DNA from: Streptomyces sp. f51
GTDB taxonomy: Bacteria > Actinomycetota > Actinomycetes > Streptomycetales > Streptomycetaceae
Reading direction: 5' to 3'
Length of the DNA stretch: 64,000 nucleotides
NCBI RefSeq assembly: GCF_037940415.1
Contig: NZ_CP149798.1
Span: forward strand, 62,001 to 126,000
Of this stretch, positions 37,990-48,473 are shown piece by piece. The position numbers were made by a program, and so were the translations under genes. Below the pieces are notes generated by a model that was not told the origin of the DNA, ran no database searches, and saw only the letters and a list, made by a program, of their open reading frames with translations. Each line of letters starts with the position of its first letter. Positions within the stretch are counted from its first letter, which is position 1.

Positions 37990-38442
37990 TCAGTCCATCA
38001 GTCGGGCCGCGAGGGCGGCGCCGAGTTCCCAGCACGCCTCGATGTCGCTCTTGCCCGGCTCGCCGGTCACCCGCACCGCCTCGGCCGCGCGGCGCCAACC
38101 GAGGCCGGTCGTCACGGAGTCGATGCCGCGCACGGCTCCCATGACGTCGTTCCCGCCGTGGACGTAGTAGCCGAACGGGCGTCCGGCCGTCGTGTCCAGG
38201 CAGGGGTAGTAGACCTGGTCGAAGAAGTGCTTCAGCGCCCCGGACATGTAGCCGAGGTTGGCCGGGGTGCCGAGCACGTAGCCGTCGGCGGCCAGCACGT
38301 CCGAGGCGGTGGCCTCCAGCGCCGCCCGCCGCACCACCCGGACGCCCTCGATCTCCGGCGCCGTCGCCCCGGAGAGCACGGCCTCGAACAGGGCCTGGCA
38401 GTTGGGCGACGGCGTGTGATGGACGATCAGCAGCGTAGGCAC
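37990..38442 (-). CDS. Flavodoxin-fold NAD(P)H-dependent oxidoreductase
   Basis: A 150-residue protein: LLIVHHTPSPNCQALFEAVL is the FMN phosphate-binding start, and GYVLGTPANLGYMSGALKHFFDQVYY is the flavodoxin/WrbA-like loop that contacts FMN. It probably reduces quinones or supplies reduced flavin. It is convergent with the FAD monooxygenase gene. Start is GTG at 38442, within the long antisense-open frame of adhE. Confidence 0.8.
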   Translation of the reverse strand: MPTLLIVHHTPSPNCQALFEAVLSGATAPEIEGVRVVRRAALEATASDVLAADGYVLGTPANLGYMSGALKHFFDQVYYPCLDTTAGRPFGYYVHGGNDVMGAVRGIDSVTTGLGWRRAAEAVRVTGEPGKSDIEACWELGAALAARLMD

Positions 38443-38646
38443 ACCCCGCACCCTGCCCCGCCGCCCGCCGTCACCGCAAGCACCGACGGGACGAGCCCCC
38501 GTCGGCACCGTCCGTGACGTGCGGCGCACACCCGGGAGGCGAGGCTCGGCCCGGCTGCACGATCGGACGCTCGGTGCAAGGCTTGAAGTAATCCGGAGCC
38601 GCTGGAGCCCGGCTGTTTCGGCACACCTCGACCGAAGGGTGATCCG

Positions 38647-41337
38647 ATGACAAGCCGCCGAAAGAAGGACGGCCAGCACTCCTCCGGGACCGGCGCAGCC
38701 GCCGCACCCTCCCCTCGATCCCAGTCCGCCGGGGTGGAGCAGGATGTCGACGAACTGGTGGCGCGCGGCCTGGAGGCATTGGAGGAATACGCCGACTACA
38801 CACAGGAACAGATCGACCACATAGTGAAGAAGGCCAGTCTGGCCGCGCTCGCCGAGCACACACGGCTCGCCATGATGGCGGTCGAGGAGACCGGGCGCGG
38901 CGTCTTCGAGGACAAGGCCGTCAAGAACATCTTCGCCTGCGAGAACATCACCCACTCGATGAAGGGCGTGAAGACCGTCGGCGTGATCCGCCGCGACGAC
39001 ATCGACGGGATCGTGGAGATCGCCGAGCCGGTCGGGGTGCTCGCCGGGGTCACTCCCGTCACCAACCCCACGTCCACCACCATCTTCAAGGCCCTGATGG
39101 CGCTGAAGACCCGCAACCCGATCATCTTCGGCTTCCACCCCGCCGCGCAGAACTGCTCCGCCGAGGCCGCCCGGATCGTCCGGGACGCGGCCGTGCGGGC
39201 GGGCGCCCCGGCCCACTGCGTGCAGTGGATCGAGCGGCCCTCGAAGGACGCCACCAGCGCCCTGATGAACCACCCGGGAGTCGCGTCGATCCTGGCCACG
39301 GGCGGCAACGCGATGGTCAGGGCCGCCTACAGCTGCGGCAAGCCCGCGCTGGGCGTCGGAGCCGGCAACGTACCCGCGTACATCGAGAAGAGCGCCCAGA
39401 TACGGCGTGCGGTCAACGACGTGGTGCTGTCCAAGACCTACGACTACGGCATGGTGTGCGCCTCGGAGCAGGCCGTGATCCTGGACCGGGAGATCCGCGA
39501 CGAGGCGATCTCCGAGTTCCGCAAACTCAAGGCGTACACGGTCAACGACCATGAGAAGGCGCTCCTGGAGGCGTATCTCTTCGGCGTCGCGGCGGACGAG
39601 CAGGGCGGACGGAACTGCGCGGGCGCGCAGTTGAACGCGGACATCGTCGGGCAGAGCGCCGTCGCGATCGCCGAGGGGGCGGGCTTCGAGGTGCCCAAGG
39701 ACACCTCGGTGATCCTCGCCGAGGTGTCCGAGGTCGGCGTCGACGAGCCGCTGACCCGGGAGAAGCTCTGTCCGGTGCTGGCCGTGCTGACCGTGGACGG
39801 CCGGGCCGACGGGGTACGGCTGGCGACCGAGATGGTGGAGTTCAACGGTCTGGGCCACTCGGCAGCCGTGCACACCGAGGACGCGGCCTTCGCCGAGGAG
39901 TACGGGCACGCCGTCAAGGCCTGCCGGGTGATCTGGAACGCGCCGACCTCGCAGGGCGGGATCGGTGACGTCTACAACGCGTTCATGCCGTCCCTGACGC
40001 TCGGCTGCGGTTCGTACGGCAGCAACTCGGTCTCCGGGAACGTCACCGCGCTCAATCTGATCAACATCAAGCGGATCGGGCGGCGGAACAACAACATGCA
40101 GTGGTTCAAGATCCCCTCGAAGATCTACTTCGAGCGCGACTCCGTCAAGTACCTCGCCGACATGCGGCGCGGCAGCCGGGTCGTCGTCGTCACCGACAAG
40201 ACCATGGTGGAGATCGGCCACCTGGAGCGGATCCGCACCGTGCTGCGGCGCCGCAGCACGCCCACCGAGGTCCGGGTGATCGACAACGTCGAACCCAACC
40301 CGAGCATCGACACCGTGCGCGCGGGCGCCGAGATGATGCGTCACTTCGCGCCGGACACCATCATCGCCCTCGGCGGCGGTTCACCGATGGACGCGGCCAA
40401 GGTGATGTGGCTGATGTACGAACACCCGGAGGTCGAGTTCGGGGACCTGAAGGAGAAGTTCTTTGACATCCGCAAGCGGGCGTTCACCTTCCCCGACCTG
40501 GGGCAGAAGGCCGACCTGGTGTGCATCCCCACCACCTCGGGCACCGGCAGCGAGGTCACGCCGTTCGCCGTTATCACCGACACCGCGACCGGGCAGAAGT
40601 ACCCGCTGGCCGACTACGCGCTGACCCCGAGCGTCGCGATCTGCGACCCGGCGCTCACCACGCACCTGCCCAGGGACATCACCGCGGACTCCGGCTTCGA
40701 CGCGCTCACGCACTGCCTGGAGACCTATGTCTCGGTGTACGCCAACGACTTCACCGACGGCCTCGCGCTCCAGGGCATCCGGCTGATCTTCGGCAACCTG
40801 GAACAGGCCGTGCTGAACGGTCCTGACGACCCCGTGGCGCGGGAGAAGATGCACAACGCCGGCACGATCGCCGGCATGGCCTTCGGGTCGGCGTTCCTCG
40901 GCGTGGTGCACGCCATGGCGCACACCCTCGGCGCGACCTTCCACGTCGCCCACGGCCGCACCAACGCGCTCCTGCTGCCGCACGTGGTCCGCTACAACGG
41001 ATCGGCGCCGACCAAGGTCACCAGCTGGCCGAAGTACCACGAGTACATCGCCCCCGAGCGCTACCAGGACGTCGCCCGGATGCTCGGCCTGCCCGCCGAC
41101 ACCCCGGAGGAGGGGGTGGAGTCCCTCGCCCACGCCCTGGAGGAACTGCGCGAGAAGGTCGGCATCCCGAGGTCGTTCAAGGACGCCGGGGTCGACGAGG
41201 CCGCGTTCCTCGACGCCCTGCCCGAGCAGGCGATGAACGCCTACGAGGACCAGTGCGCGCCCGCCAACCCGCGGCTGCCGATGCTGGCCGACATGCAGGA
41301 ACTCATGCGCCGCGCCTACTACGGCGACCCGGTGTGA
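38647..41337 (+). CDS. adhE: Bifunctional acetaldehyde-CoA/alcohol dehydrogenase AdhE
   Basis: An 896-residue fermentative enzyme that reduces acetyl-CoA to ethanol via acetaldehyde, regenerating NAD+. The aldehyde dehydrogenase half (about 35-460) has catalytic Cys in [11 protein letters not shown]; the iron-type alcohol dehydrogenase half (about 480-890) has [22 protein letters not shown] and [16 protein letters not shown] with the metal histidines. A 30-residue polar N-terminal extension is unusual. It begins an operon with pflB and pflA, with 52 bases to pflB. Upstream region 38443-38646 holds the promoter; I could not identify an Rex or FNR site. Confidence 0.95.
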
Positions 41338-41389
41338 GCCCCCGTACGAACGGCACGCCATCGACCGACCGAGAAGGAGTCGTACTCCG

Positions 41390-43654
41390 ATGACCACGCA
41401 GCAGCAGCGGCCCGTGCGCAGCGCCTGGGACGGCTTCCGGGGAGGTCTGTGGCGGGACGAGATCAACGTGCGGGACTTCATCCAGCAGAACTACACCCCG
41501 TACGAAGGCGACAGCTCCTTCCTGGCCGGTCCCACCGAGCGCACCACGGCCGTGTGGAAGAAGATCACCGATCTGTTCCCCGAGGAGCGCGCCAAGGGTG
41601 TCCTGGACGTGTCGTACGACGTCCCGTCCACCATCACCGCCCACCCGCCGGGGTGGATCGACCGCGACAACGACCTGATCGTCGGCCTCCAGACCGACGC
41701 CCCGCTGAAGCGGGCGATCATGCCCTACGGCGGCTGGCGGATGGTGGCGGGGGCGCTCCAGACGTACGGCTACCCGGTCTCGCCGGAACTGGAGAAGGTG
41801 TTCACCCAGTACCGCAAGACCCACAACGCCGGGGTGTTCGACGCCTACACGCCGCAGATCCGCGCGGCCAGGAAGGCGGGCATCGTCACGGGCCTGCCCG
41901 ACGCCTACGGCCGGGGCCGCATCATCGGCGACTACCGCCGGGTCCCGCTGTACGGCGTGGACCGGCTGATCGAGGCCAAGCAGGAGGAGAAGGCCGATCT
42001 GGACGCCATGCCCCGCGAGGCCACGCGCCTGGAGGAGGTGATCCGCGAACGCGAGGAGATCTCCGAGCAGATCAGGGCGCTGGGCGAGCTGAAGGAGATG
42101 GCCGCCTCCTACGGGTCGGACATCTCGGGTCCGGCGAGCACCGGCCGGGAGGCCGTGCAGTGGCTGTACTTCGCCTACCTCGCGGCGGTGAAGGAGCAGA
42201 ACGGCGCGGCGATGTCGCTCGGCCGCACGTCCACGTTCATCGACGCCTATCTCCAGCGGGACATCGACGCCGGGCTCCTCGACGAGAGCGCGGCGCAGGA
42301 GATCGTCGACGACTTCATCATCAAACTCCGGATCGTACGGTTCCTGCGCACCCCGGAGTACGACGAGTTGTTCTCGGGCGACCCGACCTGGGTCACGGAG
42401 TCCATCGGCGGCATCGGCACGGACGGCCGCACCCTGGTCACCCGTACCTCCTTCCGGTATCTCCAGACCCTGTACAACCTGGGGCCCGCGCCCGAGCCGA
42501 ACATGACGGTGTTCTGGTCGCCGGCGCTGCCGCAGGGCTTCAAGGAGTTCTGCGCGCAGGTCTCGATCGACACCTCCAGCCTCCAGTACGAGTCGGACGA
42601 ACTGATGCGTCCGCGCTTCGGCGACGACACCGCGATCGCCTGCTGTGTCTCGGCGATGGAGGTCGGCAAGCAGATGCAGTTCTTCGGCGCCCGGGTCAAT
42701 CTCGCCAAGACCCTGCTGTACGCCATCAACGGCGGCCGGGACGAGAAGTCGGGCGCCCAGGTCGGTCCCGAGACCGGGGCGATCACGGCCGGGACGCTGG
42801 ACTACGACGAGGTGGTGGCCCGCCTCGACCGGCAGATGGAGTGGCTGGCCGAGACCTATGTCCACGCCCTCAACGTCATCCACTACATGCACGACAAGTA
42901 CGCCTACGAGCGACTGGAGATGGCGCTGCACGACCGGGACATCCGGCGCACGATGGCGTGCGGCATCGCCGGTCTCTCGGTCGCCGCGGACTCCCTGTCG
43001 GCGATCAAGCACGCCCGAGTGACGCCCGTGCGGGACGAGACCGGGCTGGTCGTCGACTACCGCACCGAGGGCGAGTTCCCGGCGTACGGCAACAACGACG
43101 AGCGGGCCGACTCGATCGCGGTGTGGCTGGTCGAGGAGTTCATGCGCAAGGTGCGCAAGCACCCCACCTACCGGGGCGCCGAGCACACCCAGTCGGTGCT
43201 CACCATCACCTCGAACGTGGTCTACGGCAAGAAGACGGGCAACACGCCCGACGGCCGTCGGGCGGGCGAGCCGTTCTCCCCGGGCGCCAACCCGATGAAC
43301 GGGCGTGACACCCACGGGTACGTCGCCAGCGCGCTGTCGGTGGCCAAACTGCCCTACGAGCAGGCGGAGGACGGGGTCTCGCTCACGAACACGATCACGC
43401 CCGACGCGCTGGGGCGCACCCCCGAGGACCGGATCCGCAACCTCGCGGGAGTCCTGGACGGCTTCGTGACCTGTCAGGGCTTCCACATGAACGTCAACGT
43501 GCTGAACCGGGACACGCTGATCGACGCGATGGATCATCCGGAGAACTATCCGCAGCTGACCGTGCGGGTCAGCGGTTACGCGGTCAACTTCGTGCGGCTG
43601 ACGCGCGAGCAACAGCTCGACGTCCTGAGCCGTACCTTCCACGGGTCGCTGTAG
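41390..43654 (+). CDS. pflB: Pyruvate formate-lyase
   Basis: A 754-residue glycyl-radical enzyme converting pyruvate and CoA to acetyl-CoA and formate, active only without oxygen. Adjacent active cysteines C418-C419 (AIACCVSAM) match the position in the E. coli enzyme, and the radical glycine is G729 in VRVSGYAV near the C-terminus. Full length. Ribosome site GAAGGAG. Together with adhE and pflA it makes a complete mixed-acid module. Confidence 0.95.
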
Positions 43655-43665
43655 CCGGGCTCGTC

Positions 43666-43700
43666 CCCCGGGGGAGCGCGACCGCCGCGCTCCCCCGGGG
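43666..43700 (+). terminator. Strong stem-loop between pflB and pflA
   Basis: CCCCGGGGGAGCGCG (43666-43680) pairs perfectly with CGCGCTCCCCCGGGG (43686-43700) around a five-base loop. It lacks a U-run and lies inside the operon, so it may lower pflA expression by partial termination, or protect the adhE-pflB message. Confidence 0.75.
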
Positions 43701-43744
43701 AACCGTGAGGACGTCAGGAGGCCGGGAGGCCGGAAGGATTGATC

Positions 43745-44569
43745 ATGTCCCTGATCCAGCCGGGTGAGCTGCTGCCCCTCATCCCCGTCAGCACCGACAC
43801 CCCCGCCGAACAGGCGGCCACGCTGCGCGGGACCGGCCCGGTCAGCGGTTCCGTGCACTCCTGGGACCTGTCGACCGGCGTGGACGGACCCGGCACGCGC
43901 TTCGTCGTCTTCGTCGCCGGCTGTCCGCTGGCCTGCCTGTACTGCCACAACCCCGACACCCTGCGCATGCGCAACGGCAGACGCACGACGGCCGACAAGG
44001 TCGTCGAGGAGGTGAACAAGTACGTCCCGTTCATCCGTGCCGCGGGCGGCGGCTTCACCATCAGCGGCGGCGAACCGCTGCTGCAACCGGACTTCACGGG
44101 GGAGATCCTGCGGCTCTGCCACGAGGAGCTGGGCCTGCACACCGCCCTGGACACCTCGGGCTTCCTCGGGGCCCGCGCCTCCGACACCCTGCTGGCGGAC
44201 GTCGACCTGGTGCTGCTGGACATCAAGTCCTGGGACCGCGAGCTGTATCTGCGCCTCACCGGGCGGCAGCTGGAGCCCACCCTGGCCTTCGCCCGCCGTC
44301 TGGCCGAGCTGCGCAAGGAGGTCTGGGTCCGTTTCGTCCTGGTTCCGGGGCTGACCGACGCCACGGAGAACGTGGCGGGTGTCGCCTCGTTCGCGGGGTC
44401 CCTCGGGAACGTGACGCGTGTCGACGTCCTGCCCTTCCACAAGCTCGGCACGGCCAAGTGGGAGGAACTGGGCCTGGAGTTCACGCTCGCCGACACCCCG
44501 GTCCCGACCTCGGCCCAGGTCGCCAGGGCACGCTCCGTCTTCACCTCGTACGGTCTCAACGCGGTGTGA
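43745..44569 (+). CDS. pflA: Pyruvate formate-lyase activating enzyme (radical SAM)
   Basis: A 274-residue radical-SAM protein that installs the glycyl radical on PflB. Iron-sulfur motif C60-x3-C64-x2-C67 (CPLACLYC), glycine-rich SAM motif FTISGGEPLLQ, and later LDTSGF. Slightly longer N-terminus than the E. coli enzyme. ATG at 43745 follows GGAAGG. Last gene of the fermentation operon. Confidence 0.93.
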   Translation: MSLIQPGELLPLIPVSTDTPAEQAATLRGTGPVSGSVHSWDLSTGVDGPGTRFVVFVAGCPLACLYCHNPDTLRMRNGRRTTADKVVEEVNKYVPFIRAAGGGFTISGGEPLLQPDFTGEILRLCHEELGLHTALDTSGFLGARASDTLLADVDLVLLDIKSWDRELYLRLTGRQLEPTLAFARRLAELRKEVWVRFVLVPGLTDATENVAGVASFAGSLGNVTRVDVLPFHKLGTAKWEELGLEFTLADTPVPTSAQVARARSVFTSYGLNAV

Positions 44570-44603
44570 CCAGGACCCGGCAGGGGAGCCACTGAACGGC
44601 TGA

Positions 44604-44761
44604 TATGCTCATCACAGAGCGCGCACCGAGTACTCGGTGACGAGCCAGGCGTTGGTGGTCCAAGGAAAGACGCCCCGCTTCCTGCGGGGAAATGCAGGTG
44701 CAAGGCCTGCCCGGCGCTCCGTGAACACCGCCTCCGGTCATCGACCGGAGGCGGTGTTTTT
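44604..44761 (+). ncRNA. Candidate stand-alone structured RNA with cobalamin-riboswitch-like core
   Basis: Between pflA and a convergent kinase gene, a TATGCT -10-like hexamer (44604-44609) is followed by about 145 bases of structured sequence ending in a textbook terminator. Helices: TTGG/CCAA (44652-44663) inside GGCGT/ACGCC, CCCCGC/GCGGGG (44673-44689), and GCAGG/CCTGC (44694-44710). The run GGGGAA, then GGTGCAAG, then CC resembles the P4-P5 core of AdoCbl riboswitches, but the usual GCCACTG end is not present. No gene follows on this strand, so if it senses a ligand it would act as a free RNA. It could equally be an unrelated sRNA. Confidence 0.5.
44726..44761 (+). terminator. Intrinsic terminator
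   Basis: CACCGCCTCCGGTC (44726-44739) pairs with GACCGGAGGCGGTG (44743-44756), followed by TTTTT (44757-44761). It is the most classical terminator in the window and could serve pflA read-through or the candidate small RNA. Confidence 0.9.
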
Positions 44762-44793
44762 CGTGCGGTCCCGGACCGCGCGCATCGCCCCCG

Positions 44794-45387
44794 TCAGTGC
44801 CCGGGGACCACGAGGTCCGCCCGCTCCCGGGGCCGGGTCGTGCTCACGTAGTGCTCCTCGGCCAGGCGCCAGCGGGCCTCCCAGTCGAGGGGGCCGTGGT
44901 CGTCCCCCCTGGCCCGGAGCCGGCGCATGGACTCGTCCGCCGGGGTGTCGACGTACACGACCAGGTCGTAGTGGTCGGCGAGTTCGGGCCGGGCGGTGTA
45001 CACGCCCTCGACGAGGACGATGCCGTCGCAGGTGACGGCGCACAGCTCGTCGGTCACCAGGGAGCCGGTCGGCCAGTCGTAGCGCCGGTAGTGCGCGTGA
45101 TGGCCGGTGGCGAGCGGGGTGAGGACCTCGTCGCGCAGCCGCTCCCAGTCGAAGTAGCGGTCGTAGCCCTGGGCGGGGGTCAGCGCGGCGCGTTCGTCCG
45201 GGTCCATCGGACGGTAGAAGTCGTCCCCGTGCACGACCGCGGCACCGGCGAGCCCGGCCACGGCCGAGGCCAGGGTCGACTTGCCGGATCCGCCCATGCC
45301 GTCGACCGCGATCAGCACCCGGCCCGAGCCGCCGCGGGCGTGGGCGGCTGCCACGACGCGCTCCGCGACTGTTTCGATCTTCGTCAT
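44794..45387 (-). CDS. Uridine kinase-like P-loop protein
   Basis: A 197-residue nucleoside kinase-fold protein: Walker A GMGGSGKST at 30-38, VHGDDFYRPMDP with the catalytic aspartate near 55, YDRYFDWERL, and VLVEGVYTARPELADHYDLVVYVDTP as the Walker-B-like strand and nucleoside-binding section. Typical of streptomycete 'uridine kinase' annotations. Single gene, convergent with the small RNA region. Confidence 0.85.
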   Translation of the reverse strand: MTKIETVAERVVAAAHARGGSGRVLIAVDGMGGSGKSTLASAVAGLAGAAVVHGDDFYRPMDPDERAALTPAQGYDRYFDWERLRDEVLTPLATGHHAHYRRYDWPTGSLVTDELCAVTCDGIVLVEGVYTARPELADHYDLVVYVDTPADESMRRLRARGDDHGPLDWEARWRLAEEHYVSTTRPRERADLVVPGH

Positions 45388-45689: not shown

Positions 45690-46121
45690 TCACACGTCGG
45701 TGGGCAGACCGCTCACCTCGGCGATGCCCCGCAGTTCCTCGTCCTGGCGGTGCCGCTCCCCGATGAAGTCGGCGATCTCCCTGCACCGCTCGGGATCGTC
45801 CGCCGTGCCCGAGTCCGTGACGACCCGCACGACGCCGATCTCCTCGGTCTCCAGCTCGACGATCCGGTTGTCCAGGCGTCCCGTGACGGCCACGGCGACC
45901 ACGAGGGACGCCTCGTCGCGAACCTCCTGCGGGACGCTCTCGGGTTCCTCGCCGTCCAGACACAGTTCGATCGCTCCCACCCTCTCCTCCCTGATCGCTT
46001 CGAGTACGGGCTCGACCATGCGCAGCAAGAGCGCGTAGTCCGCCGGAGCCATACGCAGGCGGAGCATTTCGAGGTACAGGTCGAGGGGCCGGTCATCCGG
46101 TGCCTGCTCTGATGCGTCCAT
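45690..46121 (-). CDS. Hypothetical acidic protein
   Basis: A 143-residue soluble acidic protein, starting MDASEQAPDDRPLDLYLEMLRLRMAP, with alternating helices and strands and a REIADFIGERHRQDEELR segment near the C-terminus. The ATG at 46121 was chosen because upstream codons have poor bias. No membrane or signal segments and no known motif. It is probably a small conserved streptomycete protein of unknown role. Confidence 0.65.
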   Translation of the reverse strand: MDASEQAPDDRPLDLYLEMLRLRMAPADYALLLRMVEPVLEAIREERVGAIELCLDGEEPESVPQEVRDEASLVVAVAVTGRLDNRIVELETEEIGVVRVVTDSGTADDPERCREIADFIGERHRQDEELRGIAEVSGLPTDV

Positions 46122-46322: not shown

Positions 46323-48473
46323 TCACCCGTAGGTGCGCCGGATGCGGTAGAGGACGAAGACGCCGGCCAGGACGAAGATCCCGCCGATCGCGCCCGGCCA
46401 CAGGTTCGCACCGGTCTCGGCGAGGCCGCCGGTCCCGACCGCCTGCGGCTCGACCCCCGAGGTGGCCGAGGGGTAGCCCCCGGCCGCGGGCTCGGTCTGC
46501 GCGGGCGTGCCCACCTCGCCGCCCTGGTCGGCGCCCGGGGTCTCCTGCGCGGCGGACGAGCCGTCGCCGGCCGACGAGGTCACGTCGGACTTGGGCTCGA
46601 CCGTGGCGGGAGGCGCGTCGCCGCCCGCGGGCTCGGTGCCCGGCGACCCGGCGGTCGGCTCGGCGCTCTGGCCGCCGCCGTTGTCGCCGGAGCCGGTGCC
46701 GTCCTTGCCGCCGGTGCCACCGTTACCGCCCTTGCCGCCGTTGCCGCCCTTGCCGTCGGACGGGTCGTCCGCGGTGGGTGCCGGCTGCTCGGAGGGGTTC
46801 CCGGAGGGGTTCGGGTCCGCCTCGGAGGGGTTCGGGGCCGCCTCCGAGGGGTTCGGCTCGGCGCTCTGCGTGGGCTTGTCGGTGGCCGGAGGGGTCTCCT
46901 GCTGCCCGCCACCGTTGCCGTTGCCGCCGCCGTTGCCGCCGCCATTGCCGTTGCCGGCGCCCGCGCCGCACTTCTTGCCGCTGTTGATGCAGTCGACCAT
47001 CTCGTTCATCAGACTCTCGTCGAAGACGTTGATGAAGTCGCCGTGGTCCGTGACCGGCTTGTGGAGGTTCTCCGGGAAGGAGTCCACCGCGAACAGCGGT
47101 GACGTACGGCCGCCGTCCTGGAGGCTCGGGGCGTTGATGGCGTAGACGATGCGCTGCACCAGCTGCGGGATGGCCTTGAAGCCGCCGGGGCAGTTGCCCT
47201 GGGCGTCCGCGAAGGCCACATGGGTGCGGTGGTTGGCGCTGTCGATGTTCGCGCCGTCCCAGCAGCTCTGGAACTTGAAGGTGCGCACCACGTCACTGCC
47301 CTGCGGGCAGAGCGGGTACTTGTCCTTCAGCTGCCGGTCCTCGAAGCCGGTGCAGCTCCAGGAGGCGTTGGCGTTGGCGGGGCCGTTGACGAACGCCTTG
47401 GCGTCACCGGTGATGATGCGCAGCAGGCGGGGCATCGCCGTGACCTTGCTGCGCGGGTTGCCGACGAAGGTCAGCGTGACCTGCTTCGGCGTGACGATCT
47501 GTCCGGCGTTGCCCTCGGTCCCGCCTCCGGGCGAGCCCGCGTCGCGTTCCTGCTTGCCGTTCTGGAGGCGCACCACGGGCCAGTAGTACGAGGACTTGTC
47601 GCCCTTGTCCTGGCAGGAGGTGTCGGCCTTGGCCAGGTCGTCGTCGCTGGCGAACGCGGTGTTGGACTGGTTGCCGACGTAGTCGTGGAAGTGGTGGGCG
47701 CCGTTGCTGACACCGGGGGCCACGATCACGTTGTCCGAGTTGAACAGTCCGTTGGCGTTGACACCGCAGCTGGAGACGAACTCGCCCCGGGAGGCGTCGG
47801 CCTGGGGCTGCGCGTTCTGCGCGTTGGGCTGGACGGACTTGATGTCGGCGTAGTCGCCGGCCACGGGGCCGTTGCCGGCCGGCGGAGTGCCGCCCTGCTG
47901 GCCGCCCTGGTTCTGGGCCGTGCCGCTCGGACTCGGGGACGCACTCCCCTGGTCCTGCGGCGAGGCGCTCCGGCCGTTGTCCGCGCCGGTGCCGGGCTGA
48001 TTGCCGGAGGGGCGCAGGATGCAGGCGGCGAAGGCGTCGAGCCCGCTCGGCGGGTCGCCCGCCGCGTCGATGGCGGCCACGATGCGGCCGATCGACTCGG
48101 CCCGTTTGTCCTTCAGCGGAATCATCACCGCGTCGGCGCCGCTGTCGCCGCTCTGCTGCATCTGGTCGGCGCTCGCCTGGAGTTGACGGTAGGCCTCGGC
48201 GATCTGCTGGTCCAGACCGGCGAGTTCCTTGTCGACGTCCGCCTTGGCGGCGTCCGGGACCGTCTTCAACTGCTCCCCGACGTCAGGACAGTCGATCGTG
48301 GCGGAACCGGCGGACAGGACGTGAACGCCCGTCGGGTCGCCCCCCGTCCCGGTCTCGGTCGCCGATGCGTAGACGTTGACTGCCAGCAGTCCGCCTCCGC
48401 CCAGGATCAGTGCGAAAGCGGCAGAGGTCGCGCGGCGTGCGCCCGTGGGGCGTCTTCGCGTGTTGCGTCCCAA
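46323..48473 (-). CDS. DUF1996 cell-wall protein with sortase-type LAETG anchor
   Basis: A 716-residue exported protein. A basic N-terminus and hydrophobic helix (about 18-35) act as signal. The DUF1996 domain (about 225-490; FVSSCGV, NGAHHFHDYVGNQ, and GNCPGGFKAIPQL with conserved His and Cys) is thought to bind or act on polysaccharide. A long Gly/Pro/Ser-rich linker (about 500-680, with repeated PNPSE) leads to LAETG (684-688), a hydrophobic helix and RIRRTYG, the LAxTG signal of actinobacterial class E sortases. TTG at 48473 is preferred over GTG at 48533 because AGGAG sits seven bases upstream. Confidence 0.85.
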   Translation of the reverse strand: MGRNTRRRPTGARRATSAAFALILGGGGLLAVNVYASATETGTGGDPTGVHVLSAGSATIDCPDVGEQLKTVPDAAKADVDKELAGLDQQIAEAYRQLQASADQMQQSGDSGADAVMIPLKDKRAESIGRIVAAIDAAGDPPSGLDAFAACILRPSGNQPGTGADNGRSASPQDQGSASPSPSGTAQNQGGQQGGTPPAGNGPVAGDYADIKSVQPNAQNAQPQADASRGEFVSSCGVNANGLFNSDNVIVAPGVSNGAHHFHDYVGNQSNTAFASDDDLAKADTSCQDKGDKSSYYWPVVRLQNGKQERDAGSPGGGTEGNAGQIVTPKQVTLTFVGNPRSKVTAMPRLLRIITGDAKAFVNGPANANASWSCTGFEDRQLKDKYPLCPQGSDVVRTFKFQSCWDGANIDSANHRTHVAFADAQGNCPGGFKAIPQLVQRIVYAINAPSLQDGGRTSPLFAVDSFPENLHKPVTDHGDFINVFDESLMNEMVDCINSGKKCGAGAGNGNGGGNGGGNGNGGGQQETPPATDKPTQSAEPNPSEAAPNPSEADPNPSGNPSEQPAPTADDPSDGKGGNGGKGGNGGTGGKDGTGSGDNGGGQSAEPTAGSPGTEPAGGDAPPATVEPKSDVTSSAGDGSSAAQETPGADQGGEVGTPAQTEPAAGGYPSATSGVEPQAVGTGGLAETGANLWPGAIGGIFVLAGVFVLYRIRRTYG

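Follow-up and report, generated by a model that had tools for sequence, protein, structure and literature searches.

In Escherichia coli, mixed-acid fermentation involves pyruvate formate-lyase (PFL, encoded by pflB), its activating enzyme (pflA) and the bifunctional dehydrogenase AdhE; adhE lies outside the pfl operon, and control is exerted by FNR/ArcA and others. Streptomycetes are generally treated as strict aerobes. Published work on their anoxic survival includes studies of nitrate reductase in spores (PMC7931247) and of the OsdR regulon (PMC5069765). The OsdR region of S. coelicolor and S. lividans includes a PFL gene, SCO0206, whose expression follows OsdR in S. lividans, where the annotation gives pflA as a pseudogene fragment (PMC6302529). 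Apart from this OsdR-linked gene, no literature on intact PFL/AdhE in Streptomyces was recognised by titles and the opening lines of abstracts. Here we describe an adhE-pflB-pflA gene set in a 64,000-nucleotide stretch of Streptomyces sp. f51 (the window, bases 62001-126000 of an 8.09-Mb contig), a genome that the original prediction had recognised as streptomycete-like. The three enzyme families and their catalytic residues are those of E. coli, whereas in the window the genes adjoin one another, and a search of 38443-38760 gave no FNR site. Compared with the SCO0206 region, the window set has every gene intact and includes adhE, and its upstream region gave no OsdR box. We consider the set a probably functional, selectively maintained fermentation operon for formate and ethanol that would serve anoxic redox balance (probability about 0.75), because of its equivalog matches, intact residues, purifying selection and the tight co-occurrence of AdhE with PFL.

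The three genes run in the same direction and are intact (Table 1), in agreement with the complete operon first proposed, and each product scored above its NCBIfam equivalog cut-off. AdhE obtained 1365.6 bits against PRK13805.1 (cut-off 951), PflB 1176.9 bits against TIGR01255, formate C-acetyltransferase (cut-off 994.2; profile positions 1-744 of 744), and PflA 294.8 bits against TIGR02493, PFL-activating protein (cut-off 231.75). The Pfam domains of all three agreed with these calls, AdhE having fused acylating aldehyde dehydrogenase and iron-dependent alcohol dehydrogenase (Fe-ADH) domains. Solved structures aligned with residues 8-753 of PflB (E. coli PFL, 1h16), 33-895 of AdhE (7dag) and 35-273 of PflA (PFL-activating enzyme, 3c8f). 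Every catalytic residue listed in the original prediction was found: PflB has neighbouring cysteines C418/C419 and a C-terminal glycyl-radical motif, RVSGYAVNF, with G729, and PflA has CPLACLYC with C60/C64/C67, plus GGEP. AdhE has VCASEQ and the Fe-ADH histidine motifs. Judged by these matches, three adjoining full-length equivalogs are far beyond chance.

Table 1. Features of the adhE-pflB-pflA locus, in window coordinates.
Feature	Coordinates	Strand	Evidence or remark
adhE, bifunctional acetaldehyde-CoA/alcohol dehydrogenase, 896 aa	38647..41337	+	PRK13805.1, motifs, dN/dS
pflB, pyruvate formate-lyase, 754 aa	41390..43654	+	TIGR01255, C418/C419, G729, 1h16 alignment, dN/dS
pflA, PFL-activating radical-SAM enzyme, 274 aa from ATG	43745..44569	+	TIGR02493, C60-x3-C64-x2-C67, 3c8f alignment
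15-bp hairpin in the pflB-pflA gap, possible partial terminator/attenuator without U tail	43666..43700	+	fold z -3.39 for 43655-43744
Region 5' of adhE, conserved in part with L111 and L112; no OsdR, DevR, Rex or FNR site recognised	38515..38646	+	alignment, site scans
tRNA-Gly (tcc) just 3' of pflA	44649..44720	+	operon sits between tRNA-Gly and FMN-reductase-like gene
FMN-reductase/flavodoxin-fold-like gene, divergent left flank, also at the operon-less G024 site	37990..38442	-	PF03358, 26.1 bits, cut-off 24
Block missing at the same site in G024 (L274)	38498..44591		collinearity of the flanks ends at 38497 and resumes at 44592

The adhE start at 38647 is backed by a similar N-terminus in two relatives, L111 and L112. 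Our own simple GC-frame gene caller placed it at 38734, and the window upstream scans ran from there (350 bp or 300 bp) and still covered the intergenic region. For pflA, the ATG at 43745, with GGAAGG upstream, was preferred over the TTG at 43739 because the C60/64/67 numbering fits the ATG start. The gaps measure 52 bp (adhE-pflB) and 90 bp (pflB-pflA), and a hairpin comparable to that in the second gap is also predicted in L111 and L112. Given the strength of this hairpin, the operon is probably a case of read-through, perhaps attenuated before pflA. Co-transcription of the three genes as a unit is probable, and we infer that the hairpin attenuates, keeping the activase below its substrate.

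Taxonomic distribution had been suggested as a check, and it does not bear out the view of the operon as a streptomycete oddity. TIGR01255 matched in 113 of 295 Streptomyces genomes, above cut-off in 104, and a PFL gene is also described for S. lividans (PMC6302529); PFL is therefore common and patchy in the genus and the window operon unexceptional. A phylum-wide draw gave PFL above cut-off in 30 of 396 genomes. Full AdhE exceeded its cut-off in 73 of the 295 genomes, 71 of which also had PFL above cut-off; PFL alone was present in 33, AdhE alone in 2, and 189 had neither (Fisher p about 1e-39, a statistic that ignores shared ancestry). The two AdhE-only genomes, G034 and G106, have PFL solely as sub-cut-off pieces, and in G042 and G260 a single contig carries pieces of both genes. 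Full AdhE was thus never found without PFL or PFL remains in the 295 genomes. For NarG and PFL the counts were 53 with both, 51 with PFL only, 45 with NarG only and 146 with neither. Since the two co-occur, the idea that PFL replaces nitrate respiration across the genus was rejected. NarG above cut-off was absent from 32 of the 71 genomes with AdhE and PFL. A profile search of relatives' contigs contributed the best 80 of 586 relatives, which serve as examples, not frequencies.

Substitution rates point to purifying selection. The ratio of nonsynonymous to synonymous rates (dN/dS) against L111 was 0.177 for adhE, 0.144 for pflB and 0.189 for pflA, and against L112 0.171, 0.187 and 0.313. Among the window and these two relatives, the operon dS (0.17-0.39) is close to that of the flanking genes (0.16-0.39), so the block was probably already present in their common ancestor. 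The stand-alone adhE-pflBA arrangement between the FMN-reductase-like gene and tRNA-Gly is common to both relatives. In genome G024 (L274) the flanks are collinear and tRNA-Gly is in place, and the operon is missing at that site; gain in the ancestor of the window, L111 and L112 or loss in G024 fit this gap equally well. Trees were built with FastTree and midpoint-rooted (144 PFL and 70 AdhE sequences). In the PFL tree, the window sequence clusters with those of L111 and L112 (support 1.0) within a 31-member clade (1.0) made up mostly of nitrate-cluster genes, plus L160 and L021. In the AdhE tree, the window, L111, L112, L160 and L021 form one clade (0.955). On transfer, for which a tree had been suggested as a check, the dS values argue against a recent event among the window, L111 and L112; ancestral gain and loss in G024 both fit.

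The contexts of pflB were compared in 105 streptomycete loci, each carrying a complete pflB open reading frame (ORF) and comprising the window, relatives' loci and fetched stretches. Several genomes contribute two loci, at least two species are counted twice (L042/L120 and L046/L147), and 22 of the 104 genomes with PFL above cut-off lie outside the fetched pflB set. Marker proteins were taken from L107, L160 and L069, USP alone being a weak marker. Relatives of OsdR, OsdK, USP or pyruvate-phosphate dikinase occurred somewhere in 50 loci (L160 among them, which also has adjacent adhE); narK within two genes and/or a molybdopterin reductase within five genes of pflB in 37; adjacent adhE alone in 5 (window, L111, L112, L152, L158); and no OsdR-island, nitrate or adjacent-adhE marker in 13. 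The window operon is therefore a minority form of streptomycete pflB context. The dikinase was verified as TIGR01828 in one locus. The OsdR/OsdK labels in L160 derive from domains (LuxR-type response regulator; GAF-GAF-HisKA_3 kinase), USP/CBS neighbours and the S. coelicolor locus description in PMC5069765, not from the S. coelicolor OsdR sequence.

As in the window, adhE lies directly 5' of pflB in Kitasatospora phosalacinea (L021) and in genome G231 (L160). L160 adjoins a LuxR-type regulator, a GAF histidine kinase and USP and CBS genes and has an OsdR box, whereas the window has neither; L021 also has a box that the window lacks. The closest pflB genes in nitrate clusters of other Streptomyces (e.g. 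L107) are 85-88% identical to that of the window, and these clusters have nitrate genes in place of adhE.

OsdR boxes, 16-nt palindromes of the DevR type, were scored in 300 bp upstream (threshold 9); the weight matrix was symmetric and built on 20 S. coelicolor OsdR sites from the literature. Outside nitrate clusters, 50 of 62 pflB promoters scored at least 9 (against 3.7% of shuffles), as did 26 of the 40 unlinked adhE promoters (5.8% of shuffles) and 15 of the 37 pflB promoters in nitrate clusters (median 7.5; 2.7% of shuffles); overall, 66 of the 105 pflB promoters reached this score. The best site starts at -107 or -108 in 10 of the 40 unlinked adhE promoters. That of L223 scores 13.4 at -107, and the pflB promoter of L170 scores 21.0 at -131. 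The controls temper this association: among 705 distant genes in these loci, 136 also reach 9 (shuffles, made for 150 of them, 4.1%), 10% of 1635 other same-locus upstreams score at least 13.2, and nitrate-cluster pflB promoters stand at about twice the distant-gene control. The high control scores arise in part because many control genes belong to the OsdR island.

Among the six adjacent adhE-pflB operons scored, L160 has the sole box (16.5), followed by L152 (7.8), the window (6.4), L112 (5.5), L158 (3.0) and L111 (0.5); a separate upstream scan of the Kitasatospora operon L021 gave 11.6. The window score differs little from the medians of the controls, 4.4 and 4.8, and no OsdR site of at least 12 was found across the 64-kb window. 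Rex or other redox sites had been suggested upstream of the operon. The best match to the Rex operator TGTGAAN4TTCACA at 38443-38760 had 5 of 12 mismatches (shuffle mean 5.1), giving no Rex site, and for the Crp, FNR, DevR and OsdR consensus in the same interval the best sites had 3, 4, 6 and 6 mismatches (shuffle means 3.7, 4.3, 5.0 and 5.7). A sigma-70 promoter scan of 38400-44800 found 0, with 0.3 expected. The window genome (G000) does encode an OsdR-like response regulator 78% identical to that of L160, with a box scoring 18.1 located 94 bp upstream of its gene and neighbours that look USP-like by eye; the kinase most like OsdK (54%) is encoded elsewhere. The genes flanking this island (L281, L282) match by their N-termini those around the pflB-bearing island of G095 (L284 and L285 around L156). 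With the window's as the single PFL match in G000, the island pfl copy was apparently lost or never gained there. Because the operon stands alone by tRNA-Gly with no OsdR box found, it is probably regulated differently from its relatives.

The steps by which the operon would work can be deduced from the enzyme families, from which activity and physiological role are likewise drawn. When oxygen is absent, PflA would set the glycyl radical on G729 of PflB, which would cleave pyruvate with CoA to formate and acetyl-CoA. AdhE would use two NADH to turn some of the acetyl-CoA into ethanol, regenerating NAD+ so that glycolysis could continue; some of the acetyl-CoA may become acetate, giving maintenance ATP. 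Searches of the window genome covered PFL, AdhE, NarG, formate/nitrite transporter (FNT), one molybdopterin enzyme, OsdK and OsdR. They gave one FNT match. With no NarG above cut-off, fermentation would be a main anoxic redox outlet. As a possible respiratory formate sink, the best match to the L107 molybdopterin enzyme was 37% identical, at 15.8 kb, within a 1378-aa gene elsewhere; no formate-dehydrogenase family model was run. The role in anoxic survival first suggested is plausible, with waterlogged soil and hypoxic spores or pellets as candidate settings.

Several observations count against a fermentative operon under selection. The hairpin could reduce pflA expression, pflA shows weaker constraint when compared more widely (dN/dS 0.31-0.46 against L112, L107 and L160), and PFL decays often, 9 of the 113 matching genus genomes holding sub-cut-off pieces alone. 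Broken PFL remnants of this kind in other genomes might suggest that the operon is a non-functional relic, which we regard as highly improbable given three ORFs with intact motifs and dN/dS of 0.14-0.19 against L111. The 33 of 104 PFL genomes without AdhE above cut-off also count against the fermentative role, and they would suit a different one, in which PflB/PflA act mainly in anabolism or micro-oxic respiration (formate as C1 source or electron donor), AdhE acts mainly in aldehyde detoxification, ethanol oxidation or PFL quenching, and ethanol fermentation is minor. The 37 of 105 loci with pflB near narK and/or a molybdopterin reductase indicate that PFL can be tied to respiration. The window pflB, however, adjoins adhE rather than nitrate genes, its genome has no NarG above cut-off and a molybdopterin match of 37% alone, and 71 of 73 AdhE genomes have PFL above cut-off; this role is quite unlikely to be the principal one.

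Two further readings concern origin and control rather than function. The 6.1-kb block is what G024 lacks at the same tRNA-Gly site, and G024 has other genes on the far side of that tRNA (including a BTAD/NB-ARC/TPR regulator), so the spot is variable; the operon might thus be a recently gained mobile cassette integrated at tRNA-Gly. We find this doubtful, as the block comprises three genes and no integrase, the agreement of operon and flank dS speaks against recent transfer between the three species, and the gap could just as well reflect a loss in G024. Nor does it seem likely that OsdR still controls the operon through a non-consensus or distant site. Such control would be in keeping with the resident OsdR-like regulator and its upstream box, with the boxes of the related operons L160 and L021, and with the targets without consensus site that the published regulon includes (PMC5069765), but the window offers no site of at least 12, and the upstream scores of the window, L111 and L112 are no better than near the control medians.

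A search for att-type repeats of at least 10 bp between the tRNA-Gly region and the left edge gave a single 10-mer that L111 and L112 do not share at that place, and this candidate was discarded. Further along, a 143-aa protein (45690-46121, minus strand) has no NCBIfam or Pfam match and is unusually conserved, at 99% identity in L111 and L112 and 96% in L274 (dN 0.003-0.019), against 70-94% for other shared genes around it. The tRNA-Pro(cgg) called by ARAGORN at 46597-46685 (plus strand) is probably a false positive, because it lies inside a called coding sequence (46323-48269) and was not found in the collinear L111, L112 and L274.

Other PFL loci varied in several ways. Full pflB without recognised pflA alongside occurs in L139 (G024:C89) and L153 (G257:C7), where the activase may be encoded elsewhere. 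On G254:C1 (11.54 Mb), PFL, AdhE and NarG each have two equal-score copies, at about 0.17-0.20 Mb and 11.34-11.37 Mb; their mirrored positions near both chromosome ends suggest terminal inverted repeats that include the fermentation genes. L107:2800-15289 has the order nirB-narK-pflB-pflA-membrane protein-molybdopterin reductase-4Fe4S-Rieske, a PFL-linked nitrate module with similar loci in, for example, L101, L116 and L022. Its membrane protein gave a sub-cut-off match to nitrate reductase gamma (NarI; 14.4 versus 22.9 bits). Its 770-aa molybdopterin enzyme has closest PDB chains resembling formate dehydrogenase, best matches the NasC family below cut-off (764 versus 1100) and aligns Cys-Met where formate dehydrogenase has Sec-His, a pair that we take to mark enzyme type; we lean to a nitrate reductase-type enzyme rather than a formate dehydrogenase.

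A split PFL was also observed. L269:2975-6366 (G567) encodes a 728-aa protein without the glycyl-radical domain, a separate 83-aa ORF matching GrcA3 (NF038360, 167.2 bits, cut-off 158) and a third ORF whose CxxxCxxC motif makes it, by motif alone, a candidate activase. In the phylum draw, 11 genomes of two families have separate PFL pieces and 7 more have the pieces in one frame with an insert. The PDB chains 38la/38lb (formate acetyltransferase) align with the 728-aa protein, at residues 3-677 alone, so split PFL may already be known.

The enzymes themselves are ordinary. Three points deserve attention: fermentation genes occur widely in a genus that is treated as aerobic, OsdR-type boxes are found at both adhE and pflB even where the two genes are unlinked, and the window lineage has a stand-alone operon without the box. 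We tentatively suggest, at somewhat less than even odds, that a large minority of Streptomyces may be facultative fermenters whose route from pyruvate to formate and ethanol is normally coupled to the dormancy regulator OsdR or to a nitrate-reduction cluster, and that in the window lineage a consolidated adhE-pflBA by tRNA-Gly, freed from OsdR, may give a nitrate-independent anaerobic energy route without NarG. With an intact, oxygen-sensitive PFL in 104 and AdhE in 73 of 295 sampled genomes, fermentation in Streptomyces is directly testable. The OsdR-type boxes at 66 of 105 pflB promoters would give the OsdR regulon a concrete metabolic output, and the window operon offers a natural contrast, with the same enzymes and no OsdR box.

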